A stretch of 64,000 nucleotides of DNA from Gordonia oryzae (GTDB lineage: Bacteria > Actinomycetota > Actinomycetes > Mycobacteriales > Mycobacteriaceae): assembly GCF_003797185.1 (NCBI RefSeq), contig NZ_RKMH01000008.1:124001-188000 (forward strand). The letters run 5' to 3'. Made by a program: the position numbers and the translations under genes. This document shows positions 1,476 to 5,826 of this stretch, piece after piece. The notes beneath the pieces were generated by a model that worked only from the letters and a program-made list of their open reading frames with translations, was not told the origin of the DNA and did not search any database. Every line of letters begins with the position of its first letter. Position 1 is the stretch's first letter.

Positions 1476-2444
1476 ATGTCACGTTCGGCTGTTAACAAGG
1501 CAGGCTCGGAGGCCGTGACCTCTGACGCAGCGACCCCAGCCCCCTGGCGTCATCGGCTGCGACGCGCGCTTCTGGTGGCGCTTGCGCTCGTCGTCGTCGT
1601 GGGTGCCATCGCGGCGATCGCCGACACCGTCGCGGCAAGTCGCGGCGAACATCGCCTCTCGACGTCCCTCGCGAGTGCCGCGGGTATCGCCTACCCGCCC
1701 GAGGTGACACTCGGCGGCTTGCCGTTCCTGACCCATGCCTCCTCCGGCGAGTTCACCGGTGCCACGATCACCGCCCGCGGGGTGCCGATCGCGCAGGGAT
1801 GCTCGTATCCGGCGGCCGGCCCCTGCTTCGCCGAACTCGGGGCGACACTCGGTACGTTGCGGGTCCCCAACGGCTTCAATATCGGGTCCACCGACACCAT
1901 GCACGCTGCTTCGGTCATCGCCTACTCGCGACTCGACTCGGTGAATTTGGGCCGTATGCTGGGAGTCCTGGATCTCACCGTCAACACCCCCGCCGGCCCC
2001 GACCGCGTCGGCGGCGGCGGACCCCAATTCGGCAATCTCGAGCGCACCTCGGGGATCGTGCTGACCGGATCGGTGGCGCTGCCACCGGACTCGGCACCCC
2101 CGACCGGTGCGACGCCGAGTCCACAGCGCGCGCCGTCGGCCTCGGAGTACCCGGGCCCGCGGACCAGGGTCAGCGTCACCGTCGAGGTATCAGTGCGCGA
2201 CGGCCGGCTGCATGTGCAGGCGACCGGCTTCTACACCGGGCCCGAAAAGCACGTCGAGGCACCGGAACTCGTCGGCGCCGACAAGTCCTCCCTACGCGCG
2301 GCCGTTCTCGCGCGTTTCACCGCCACGCTGCCGTTGCTGCCCATGCCGTGGGACCTGCCGGCGACCGGGGCGCACAGCTCAGGCAGCGACATCCTGCTCA
2401 CCGCCGGGTCCGGGCCACGCGACCTGCTGCCCGGACTCTTCTGA
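1476..2444 (+). CDS. lmeA: LmeA-like exported phospholipid-binding protein (DUF2993)
   Basis: The product is about 322 residues. It begins with a basic stretch followed by one strong hydrophobic segment (LLVALALVVVVGAIAAIAD), a signal anchor or uncleaved signal, and then a DUF2993 body. In mycobacteria the ortholog Rv0817c (LmeA) binds phosphoinositides in the periplasm and is needed for mannan elongation of lipomannan. I chose the ATG at 1476 over the in-frame GTG at 1446, because it puts the basic N-terminus directly before the membrane segment. A Pro/Ser-rich linker (about residues 205-230) precedes the last folded part. It is divergent from glnR, as in M. tuberculosis. Confidence 0.8.
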   Translation: MSRSAVNKAGSEAVTSDAATPAPWRHRLRRALLVALALVVVVGAIAAIADTVAASRGEHRLSTSLASAAGIAYPPEVTLGGLPFLTHASSGEFTGATITARGVPIAQGCSYPAAGPCFAELGATLGTLRVPNGFNIGSTDTMHAASVIAYSRLDSVNLGRMLGVLDLTVNTPAGPDRVGGGGPQFGNLERTSGIVLTGSVALPPDSAPPTGATPSPQRAPSASEYPGPRTRVSVTVEVSVRDGRLHVQATGFYTGPEKHVEAPELVGADKSSLRAAVLARFTATLPLLPMPWDLPATGAHSSGSDILLTAGSGPRDLLPGLF

Positions 2445-2507
2445 CCGCGACGATCGCAACCAGGGCCGGGGCGGGGACAGGCTTGCGGCGGGCGCCGATC
2501 GCTGTTG

Positions 2508-2513
2508 TACCCT
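2508..2513 (+). promoter_or_regulatory. -10 element of a leaderless promoter
   Basis: TACCCT fits the actinobacterial TAnnnT -10 pattern and ends seven bases before the ATG of the cysteine leader ORF at 2521. That spacing puts the transcription start at or next to the A of the ATG, so the leader ORF is predicted to be leaderless. No convincing -35 is seen. The call is from pattern only. Confidence 0.55.
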
Positions 2514-2520
2514 CGTGGAC

Positions 2521-2610
2521 ATGCAACAGCGCCGTGAGTTCATGCTCACCCGCCGCCGGGCGATCGACTTCTGTCGGGTCGCCGACTGTTGCTGTCGCAT
2601 CACGATGTGA
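2521..2610 (+). CDS. cysteine-rich leader peptide (attenuator uORF), 29 aa
   Basis: The 29-codon ORF has cysteines at positions 18, 23, 24 and 25 (CRVADCCCR) and ends with TGA 230 bases before the sulfurtransferase start. No Shine-Dalgarno precedes it, while a -10 hexamer sits at leaderless spacing. In mycobacteria a leaderless polycysteine uORF upstream of the same cysA-sseC operon acts as a cysteine-responsive attenuator: ribosomes stall at the Cys codons when charged tRNA-Cys is scarce, and the operon is then expressed. The same role is inferred here from position, Cys density and promoter geometry. The peptide itself probably has no function after synthesis. Confidence 0.75.
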   Translation: MQQRREFMLTRRRAIDFCRVADCCCRITM

Positions 2611-2840
2611 TCGTCTGGCTCGTGCCCGCCCCATCGCGCCCGAGTCGGGGATCACTCGATGTCGGCCGGTCGGGCGCGCGTTCCATGACGACGCCATCCA
2701 ACCGAGATCCTGGGTTCTCGCCCCGATCATGCCGTCATCATCCGCCGAAGTCCGCCGGCGTCTGAGGCCGGTCGCCTTCATCGCTGTTTCACGATCAACT
2801 CCACCACACCCGATACCCACATCTAACGGAGGAAACACCC
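2611..2840 (+). promoter_or_regulatory. 230-base untranslated segment between Cys leader and cysA (probable attenuator region)
   Basis: No ORF is convincing here. The segment has short GC-rich inverted pieces (for example around GTCCGCCGGCG near 2750) and ends with a strong ribosome binding site, GGAGG, before the cysA ATG. Its position between a polycysteine uORF and the operon it would control suggests alternative RNA structures that hide or expose that site. The pairing was not computed. Confidence 0.45.
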
Positions 2841-3680
2841 ATGGCACGTTCCGACGTCCTGGTCAGCGCCGATTGGGCTGAGCAGAACCTGCACACCGAC
2901 AAGGTCGTGTTCGTCGAGGTCGACGAGGACACCAGCGCCTACGACGGCGGCCACATCGAGGGCGCGGTCAAGCTCGACTGGAAGACCGACCTGCAGGATC
3001 CGGTTCGTCGCGACTTCGTCGACCGCGAGCAGTTCTCCGCGCTGCTCTCCGAGCGCGGCATCGCCAATGACGACACCGTCGTGCTCTACGGCGGCAACAA
3101 CAACTGGTTCGCGGCGTACGCCTACTGGTACTTCAAGCTCTACGGCCACCAGGACGTGAAGCTGCTCGACGGCGGCCGCAAGAAGTGGGAGCTCGACGGC
3201 CGTCCGCTATCCACCGACGCCGTGAGCCGTCCGGCCACCGAGTACAAGGCCGCCGATCCGGACAACTCGATCCGCGCCTTCCGCGACGAGGTCGTCGAGG
3301 CCATCGGCGCCAAGAACCTCGTCGACGTGCGTAGCCCCGACGAGTTCTCCGGCAAGATCCTCGCCCCTGCCCACCTGCCGCAGGAGCAGAGCCAGCGTCC
3401 CGGCCACATTCCCGGTGCCATCAACGTGCCGTGGAGCAAGGCCGCCAACGAGGACGGCACCTTCCGCAGCGACGACGAACTCGCCGAGCTGTACTCCGAC
3501 GCCGGCCTCGACGGCGAGAAGGAAACCATCGCCTACTGCCGCATCGGCGAGCGTTCCAGCCACACCTGGTTCGTTTTGCAGGAACTGTTGGGCCACAAGA
3601 ACGTCAAGAACTACGACGGCAGCTGGACCGAATACGGCTCGCTCGTTGGTGTTCCGGTTGAACTGGGAGAAGGTAAGTAA
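2841..3680 (+). CDS. cysA: thiosulfate sulfurtransferase (rhodanese), CysA2/SseA type
   Basis: The 279-residue protein is a two-domain rhodanese. The N-terminal domain (about 1-130) is inactive. The C-terminal domain (about 145-275) carries the active-site loop CRIGER with Cys233, which takes the persulfide sulfur. The family moves sulfane sulfur from thiosulfate to thiol or cyanide acceptors in the cytoplasm. The sequence is very close to what I recall of mycobacterial CysA2/CysA3, including GGNNNWFAAYAYWYFKLYG. The ATG follows GGAGG. It forms an operon with sseC two bases downstream and is probably controlled by the upstream cysteine leader. Confidence 0.93.
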   Translation: MARSDVLVSADWAEQNLHTDKVVFVEVDEDTSAYDGGHIEGAVKLDWKTDLQDPVRRDFVDREQFSALLSERGIANDDTVVLYGGNNNWFAAYAYWYFKLYGHQDVKLLDGGRKKWELDGRPLSTDAVSRPATEYKAADPDNSIRAFRDEVVEAIGAKNLVDVRSPDEFSGKILAPAHLPQEQSQRPGHIPGAINVPWSKAANEDGTFRSDDELAELYSDAGLDGEKETIAYCRIGERSSHTWFVLQELLGHKNVKNYDGSWTEYGSLVGVPVELGEGK

Positions 3681-3682
3681 TC

Positions 3683-3988
3683 ATGTGTGCTGCACCCAAG
3701 CAGGGACAGAAGCTGCCCGCGGGCGTCGATGTCGAGAAGGAGACCGTCCTGACCGGACAGGTCACCGACAACTCCGGGAGCCCGGTCGCGGGTGCGTTCG
3801 TGCGGCTGCTCGACGAGACCGGTGAGTTCACCGCCGAGGTTGTCGCCAGCCCCACCGGCGACTTCCGCTTCTTCGCCGCGCCCGGCCAGTGGACGCTGCG
3901 TGCGCTGAGCTCGGTCGGCAACGGTGACGTCACCGTCAACCCGGACGGACCCGGCGTGCATACGCACGACATCACCGTCAGCAAGTAA
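3683..3988 (+). CDS. sseC: SseC-like DUF1416 protein
   Basis: This 101-residue protein has a transthyretin-like/CarboxypepD-reg beta fold pattern (TGQVTDNSGSPVAGAFVRLL, then FTAEVVASPTGDFRFFAAPG) and starts with MCAAPKQG, leaving a conserved cysteine at position 2. The family is always next to the rhodanese CysA and is placed in sulfur metabolism, but no reaction is established. It starts two bases after the cysA stop, so the two are co-translated. It is followed by a strong terminator. Confidence 0.88.
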   Translation: MCAAPKQGQKLPAGVDVEKETVLTGQVTDNSGSPVAGAFVRLLDETGEFTAEVVASPTGDFRFFAAPGQWTLRALSSVGNGDVTVNPDGPGVHTHDITVSK

Positions 3989-4962: not shown

Positions 4963-5682
4963 TCACACCGACGGCGGTGCATGGACCGGCGCCGGCGCGG
5001 GCGCCTTGCCACCCCAGATGATTCCGCCGATTCCCAGAAGCACCACCACAACGCCGAGTATCACGTTCAGGATCGCTGACGGTCCGGCCGAGAAGGTGTA
5101 GTGGGCGTCGATGTACTGCGATGAGTCGTTGTCGAAGGTGCCGACCACTACCGAGGGATCGACGACGGCCACCGTCGCCACGCCCGCACCGATGACCCCG
5201 AACACCACGTTCACCGCAGAGAATCCGCGCCGGGCGACGTTGCACAGGATAAGGATCGACGACAGCAGGGTGGGAAAGAGGATGAGTAGCGGCAGGAGCA
5301 CCCCCGGGAAGACGACGGCATGCGATCCGCCCACCAGCGGCAGTCCCTCACCCTGCGAGGTCCAGTGAGCCCATCCGTTGAATGTCGAGTCGCCGCCGTC
5401 GTTTGCGGTCACCGTCGCGAAGGTGAGAAACCCGAAAACACCGATGAGCAGCCACGCGAGCATCGTGCACGCGGCAAACGTCCGCGTCAGCCCGACGTGG
5501 CGCAGCGGCGGCTTCGGGGTGGGTGCGTACGGTGCGGCCCCATACGCACCCGGCACCACGACACCGCCCGGGTACTGGGCGCCACCCCACTGCTGCTGGG
5601 CGTACTGCTGCTGGGGATACTGCTGCTGGGCGTACTGCTGCTGGGCGTGCGGATTCGAATAGGGGCTCCCCGGTTCGTTCAC
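4963..5682 (-). CDS. Q-rich N-terminal, multi-span membrane protein of unknown function
   Basis: The protein (about 239 residues from the GTG at 5682) starts with a Gln/Tyr-rich repeat zone (QQQYAQQQYPQQQ) encoded by 15-base units. A Pro-rich linker (TPKPPL) leads to about four hydrophobic segments (near residues 75-95, 125-150, 155-180 and 205-225). The frame stays open upstream to an ATG at 5805, but that extension reads through tandem repeats and is not protein-like. No domain is recognised. The same design, a Q/Y/G/P tail plus four helices, recurs at 28077-28925. It is convergent with the nitrobindin gene. Confidence 0.65.
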   Translation of the reverse strand: MNEPGSPYSNPHAQQQYAQQQYPQQQYAQQQWGGAQYPGGVVVPGAYGAAPYAPTPKPPLRHVGLTRTFAACTMLAWLLIGVFGFLTFATVTANDGGDSTFNGWAHWTSQGEGLPLVGGSHAVVFPGVLLPLLILFPTLLSSILILCNVARRGFSAVNVVFGVIGAGVATVAVVDPSVVVGTFDNDSSQYIDAHYTFSAGPSAILNVILGVVVVLLGIGGIIWGGKAPAPAPVHAPPSV

Positions 5683-5763
5683 CTCGCATACGCTACCGCC
5701 AATCCCCCATGTCGCCCAGGGAGGTTGATCGATATGACGATGTGCCCGGCTTCCGCCGGGAAC

Positions 5764-5826
5764 GTCATAGACATCACCGTCATACACATCGGGCTTCATA
5801 CACATCAGGCGTCATAGACATCAGGG
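5764..5826. repeat. four-copy direct repeat of 15-16 bases
   Basis: Units at 5764-5778, 5779-5794, 5795-5810 and 5811-5826 are variants of GTCATASACATCRSS. Read on the minus strand they give repeated D-V-Y-D. They separate the Q-rich membrane protein from the decayed gene upstream and touch the stop codon at 5821. Confidence 0.75.

Follow-up and report, generated by a model that had tools for sequence, protein, structure and literature searches.

Our analysis points, with considerable confidence, to a short open reading frame (ORF) upstream of cysA in Gordonia oryzae as a leaderless attenuator that senses cysteine, in which the sensor is conserved and the output is probably something other than masking of a ribosome-binding site by the Cys codons. 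The ORF occupies positions 2521 to 2610 of the window, that is, of the whole 64,000-nucleotide stretch of DNA that was analyzed. According to the mechanism that we propose, translation of the leader would begin at the AUG that forms the 5' end of a leaderless mRNA, and this mRNA would extend through cysA and sseC. Under a shortage of charged Cys-tRNA, ribosomes would slow at codons 18 and 23 to 25, and the slowed ribosomes would affect what becomes of the RNA farther downstream, with higher cysA-sseC expression as the result. The output in Gordonia may consist of gap folding that is coupled to the leader (helices P1 and P2), together with access to a C-rich stretch 5' of cysA, for example by Rho. 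In this scheme we infer the transcription start, translation, stalling, the cysteine response, and the output step.

The leader ORF and its relatives

The leader and the genes behind it comprise the following features.

2508..2513, plus strand: -10 element TACCCT, with GTTG just before it and 7 nt to the leader ATG
2521..2610, plus strand: leader ORF, leaderless, Cys-rich, 29 codons, relative of NCBIfam leader_Ms5788A
2572..2574, plus strand: Cys18 codon TGT
2587..2595, plus strand: Cys23-25 codons TGT TGC TGT, presumed stall site
2611..2827, plus strand: gap from the leader stop to the ribosome-binding site, with no terminator-like site and no Rfam match
2828..2832, plus strand: GGAGG, ribosome-binding site of cysA, from the sequence
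2841..3680, plus strand: cysA, sulfurtransferase with rhodanese domains (gene name as in the initial annotation)
3683..3988, plus strand: sseC, DUF1416 (gene name likewise)

The ORF begins with ATG at 2521, encodes the peptide MQQRREFMLTRRRAIDFCRVADCCCRITM with Cys at positions 18, 23, 24, and 25, and closes with a TGA stop at 2608 to 2610, shortly after the run of Cys codons 23 to 25. It is encoded 5' of cysA-sseC in the same orientation, and 230 nt (2611 to 2840) separate its stop from the cysA ATG at 2841. An initial annotation of this DNA had claimed the 29-codon ORF with its four Cys codons, a leaderless distance between TACCCT and the start, and a GGAGG before cysA, all of which were confirmed. 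When both strands of the window were searched for ORFs of this kind (TANNNT, 5 to 8 nt, RTG, 12 to 45 aa, at least four Cys including CC), the leader was the sole one found, and none of 3,000 dinucleotide shuffles of 2445 to 2840 yielded another. A sigma-70 scan of 2300 to 3000 that required both hexamers returned no promoter and no -35/-10 consensus pair, so the putative leader promoter is defined by its -10 element only.

We compared the locus across a genus set in which all 59 genomes had a CysA match and 57 were readable. The set was read as Gordonia because the closest named cysA relatives are Gordonia (91 to 93% identity). The two genomes left out were G175, with only a 51% CysA relative, and L127, with 44 nt upstream at a contig end. 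Of the 57 genomes, 47 have an intact leader, three have a degraded or shortened one, and seven have none; the 47 intact and two degraded leaders make up the 49 that were folded. The distance from the -10 element to the start is 7 nt in 43 of these 49 and 6 nt in the other six, and GTTGTA is present in 34. Thus, the comparison with related genomes that had been suggested as a check found the -10 spacing and the Cys codons kept across most of the genus.

Among named cysA loci of relatives, 76 of 80 bear a Cys-rich ORF of this kind, at leaderless spacing and no more than 3 kb upstream, with Cys-Arg at codons 18 and 19 in every one of the 76. The conserved amino acid stretch of the leader is LTRRRAIDFCR. 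The named loci that lack a leader are L068 (86 nt upstream), L069, L077, and L079. In L069 and L077, which are Geodermatophilus, a short ORF (MDLCRVGSCLCPAS) about 590 nt 5' of cysA might be a remote variant of the leader.

A Cys-rich leader of the Ms5788A family has been described before cysA2 in mycobacteria, and the output of the mycobacterial leader is reportedly sequestration of the ribosome-binding site. The window's peptide matches NCBIfam leader_Ms5788A (NF042933) with an E value of 1.8e-10 and 40.3 bits, which is 4.7 bits below the curated cut-off of 45 bits. That cut-off passes few such leaders: across 151 family genomes, eight score above it and 135 match at E of 1 or less, a threshold at which 6 of 14 control genomes match as well. 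Shell 2015 describes a conserved, Cys-rich, leaderless small ORF 5' of cysA2/Msmeg_5788 that is occupied by ribosomes in M. smegmatis. Given the NF042933 match and that report, the leader is, by its sequence, a relative of a described kind and the counterpart of the mycobacterial leader before cysA2, which bears out the likeness drawn in the initial annotation. The two have in common a colinear peptide, the leaderless -10 spacing, Cys at 18 and 23 to 25, and a place 5' of cysA. Apart from its score below the family cut-off, the Gordonia leader is set apart by its ATG start and by the pattern DFCR...CCCR. Its locus differs in that there is no intervening DUF4395-type gene, the Cys tract is not complementary to the next ribosome-binding site, and the relatives show recurrent gap helices and a C-rich linker.

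Cysteine leader peptides have also been predicted before cys operons in Mycobacterium, Propionibacterium, and Bifidobacterium (PMC1262725, 2005). Like the leader described here, they are short ORFs with runs of Cys and no conserved terminator. A search of open-licence papers found none on the cysA leader in Gordonia. Judged from sequence, cysteine-type leaderless leaders reach beyond the mycobacteria.

Gap RNA, the ribosome-binding site, and the output step

The RNA between the start of the leader and cysA holds the following predicted or proposed elements.

2523..2592, plus strand: predicted leader RNA fold, pairing 2523-2529/2586-2592, 2534-2538/2545-2549, and 2559-2568/2573-2583
2656..2671, plus strand: proposed 5' arm of P2 (GATG-T-CGGCCGGTC), complementary when isolated
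2766..2784, plus strand: proposed 3' arm of P2 (GGCCGGTCG...CATC), complementary when isolated
2782..2826, plus strand: linker rich in C and poor in G (C 0.42, G 0.09), where Rho might enter

The gap had been described as structured, which holds for the genus as a class and fails for the window's sequence alone. Folding of the window's leader and gap together gave a z-score of -0.49 against shuffles, and the gap by itself gave -0.39 (-0.5 in a second computation); being no better than shuffles, the fold of this one gap was rejected as stand-alone evidence. Over the 49 genus members, the gap had a mean z-score of -1.63 and the first 78 nt of the leader one of -2.70, compared with -0.12 for a length-matched upstream control, and the P values of these scores are too strong because related genomes are not independent. 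The window's own leader scored -2.0. In its predicted fold, the pair 2523-2529/2586-2592 joins the start region with the Cys codons, and the 5' window of the leader ranks 0.20 for pairing with the Cys tract. Across the relatives, the start-region/Cys-codon pair at columns 6 and 69 occurs as A-U, G-U, and G-C, with overall covariation not above that of shuffles: 93.5% of cells were paired, against 93.1% in shuffles, and the covariation was matched by 59 of 500 shuffles.

Among the gaps of the genus, two predicted helices recur at set positions. P1, just 3' of the leader stop, was found in 26 of 49 gaps (4.5 expected), P2, typically GATG... with ...CATC, in 32 (9.7 expected), and both together in 21 (0.3 expected), figures that come from search windows chosen post hoc and from relatives that are not independent. 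The base pairs of the helices differ between subclades. Neither P1 nor P2 was called in the window's own sequence, in which the two isolated P2 arms pair at -20 kcal/mol. RNAalifold gave no consensus on an alignment of mixed groups, and a known Rfam element was rejected, there being no match in 2300 to 3000.

Our best guess for the Gordonia output is Rho-dependent or coupled control. In the Rho-dependent form, which we entertain as a possibility short of an expectation, a ribosome in cysteine-rich conditions would leave at the stop, Rho would load on the C-rich gap, and transcription would end before cysA, while stalling would alter P1 and P2 and block Rho. This is consistent with the composition of the 45 nt before the ribosome-binding site, where C exceeds G by at least 0.2 in 37 of 49 leader-bearing genomes and in only 2 of 21 other genes of the window. 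The mean over the 49 is C 0.41 and G about 0.15 to 0.17, compared with C 0.35 and G 0.31 in the eight genomes that have no intact leader (the seven without one plus the shortened L173). An intrinsic terminator of the trp type (hairpin and U run) was sought as a candidate and rejected, with 0 sites in 2300 to 3000, which also favors Rho, and PMC1262725 suggests Rho for the mycobacterial cys leaders, weakly by the authors' own words. However, within the 16-row subclade in which leaders were lost, keepers and losers have nearly the same linker composition, and the model does not explain how ribosomes that stall short of the stop would exert an effect across 100 nt.

Direct masking of the ribosome-binding site is a less likely output. 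In the standard mycobacterial form of translational attenuation, the downstream ribosome-binding site is bound up in base pairs with the Cys codons until a ribosome stalls on the leader and releases it. The loci outside Gordonia lend this some credence. A gene of at least 80 codons stands between leader and cysA in 68 of the 76 named leader-bearing loci; it carries a VDVRGPRF-like motif in 62 of the 68 and is DUF4395 (Pfam) in both loci tested. The ribosome-binding site of this gene, such as CAACAGGAG or GCGCAGGAG, tends toward pairing with the Cys tract: the median is -16.1 kcal/mol, and in 34 of the 68 loci the site is among the top 5% of windows, counts in which the script-picked start codons of the intervening genes are possibly wrong in some rows. 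Gordonia, in contrast, has no intervening gene, its gaps measure 122 to 231 nt (49 leaders), and the ribosome-binding site of cysA pairs with the Cys tract at -7.1 kcal/mol, a median rank of 0.48 that is no better than a random window and reaches the top 5% in 1 of 49. Letter-shuffled Cys tracts gave the same contrast (27 of 68 versus 1 of 49). Four non-Gordonia loci without an intervening gene, three from Mycobacterium (L022, L033, and L040) and one from an Actinomycetes MAG (L023), are likewise without complementarity (ranks 0.82 to 0.92). Moreover, when 47 Gordonia leaders were folded computationally for three states (no ribosome, a stalled ribosome, and a ribosome that has reached the stop), mean pairing of the ribosome-binding site was similar, single rows shifting both ways. 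By computed pairing, then, the leader's Cys tract does not sequester the downstream site, and we rejected direct pairing in Gordonia, which ranks like a random window and shows no consistent shift with ribosome position. The second Gordonia leader described below also lacks strong pairing with its ribosome-binding site (25 of 30 loci read; median rank 0.40), which leaves the non-Gordonia set as the only one with a positive pairing statistic.

The claim that the whole layout matches the mycobacterial attenuator was therefore not upheld: most of the named loci have an intervening gene, Gordonia has none, and its cysA site is not complementary to the Cys tract. As for the further claim that the regulatory logic extends to this organism, the sensing logic probably does, and the published output by sequestration is not visible here. 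With the mycobacterial type of RNA pairing absent, the output step of the proposed cysteine-sensing attenuator probably differs or is yet to be found. We suggest tentatively that, without the DUF4395-type gene, the cysteine sensor was kept while the output moved from masking of the ribosome-binding site to transcription or coupling via the gap RNA (P1, P2, and the C-rich linker). If this is true, one sensor family would drive two output mechanisms, with natural leader losses within the same genus. The sensor can persist without pairing to the ribosome-binding site, and for this reason Gordonia offers a test of whether such leaders also act on transcription, with the natural losers as controls.

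Retention and loss of the leader within Gordonia

On a cysA tree, the seven genomes without a leader fall in two clades (L165, L169, and L175; L171, L174, L178, and L179), which corresponds to two changes of state. L178 was counted among them and holds a 5-codon stub without Cys. The degraded leaders make up a third group next to an intact one, and all of these groups lie in a single subclade of 16 rows. L166 and L172 keep the leader with fewer Cys codons, and the leader of L173, which was read by eye, is shortened. In L161 (G129), cysA groups with that of Rhodococcus L078 (100/99), yet it has a Gordonia-type leader in front of it, as though the two had different histories.

These losses bear on whether the leader is a relic, retained merely as part of the promoter region after regulation had gone. 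Two losses and a degradation in one subclade would fit such decay, as would the persistence of TTGTANNNT in six of the seven genomes without a leader. Nevertheless, 47 of 57 genomes have an intact leader, leader RNA as a class shows more structure than shuffles do, and we regard the relic explanation as improbable.

Codon use points toward a sensor. All 49 genus leaders encode both Cys18 and Cys25 by TGT, a choice that opposes the usage in 20 ORFs of the window (82 TGC and 18 TGT). The whole leader is under no stronger synonymous constraint than the first part of cysA (entropy 0.55 over 15 codons versus 0.38 over 23 codons). That the ORF instead encodes a small functional protein, as its conserved amino acid sequence (LTRRRAIDFCR) might suggest, is very improbable, given that NCBIfam describes its relatives as leader peptides, that it is degraded or lost in a subclade while cysA stays, and that its Cys codons run against the window's bias.

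A second cysteine leader and the neighborhood of the locus

The same genome contains a second Cys leader at G000:C29:64223-64303 (L181, 2224 to 2304), with a GTG start and the peptide VNFPGVWLAARRHVDLKRVCSATCRL. It is Ms4527A-like, scoring 40.1 to 41.9 bits against a cut-off of 45 (match at G000:C29:64244), and precedes a gene with a nitrite/sulfite reductase domain. Leaders of the Ms4527A family (NF042936) resemble the cysA leader in bearing Cys, in their leaderless distance, and in standing before a sulfur gene, and they differ in having another peptide (ARRHVDLKRVCSATCRL) and another target. In 5 of the 25 second leaders read in the genus, one Cys is left (VNSAFCR). Of the seven genomes without a cysA leader, four keep the second leader and three have none by pattern; the clade of L165, L169, and L175 has no leader before the reductase gene either.

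A second CysA relative, at 51%, lies at G000:C22:83267-84088, and among the matches listed, most genus members have matches of this second kind. Within the window, the gene 5' of the leader (1446 to 2444) encodes an LmeA-like domain. A GlnR-like regulator (Pfam GlnR_1st) is encoded on the minus strand at 492 to 1292, and an ORF with a Q/Y-rich stretch of AQQQYAQQQYPQQQY repeats lies at 4963 to 5805, also on the minus strand.
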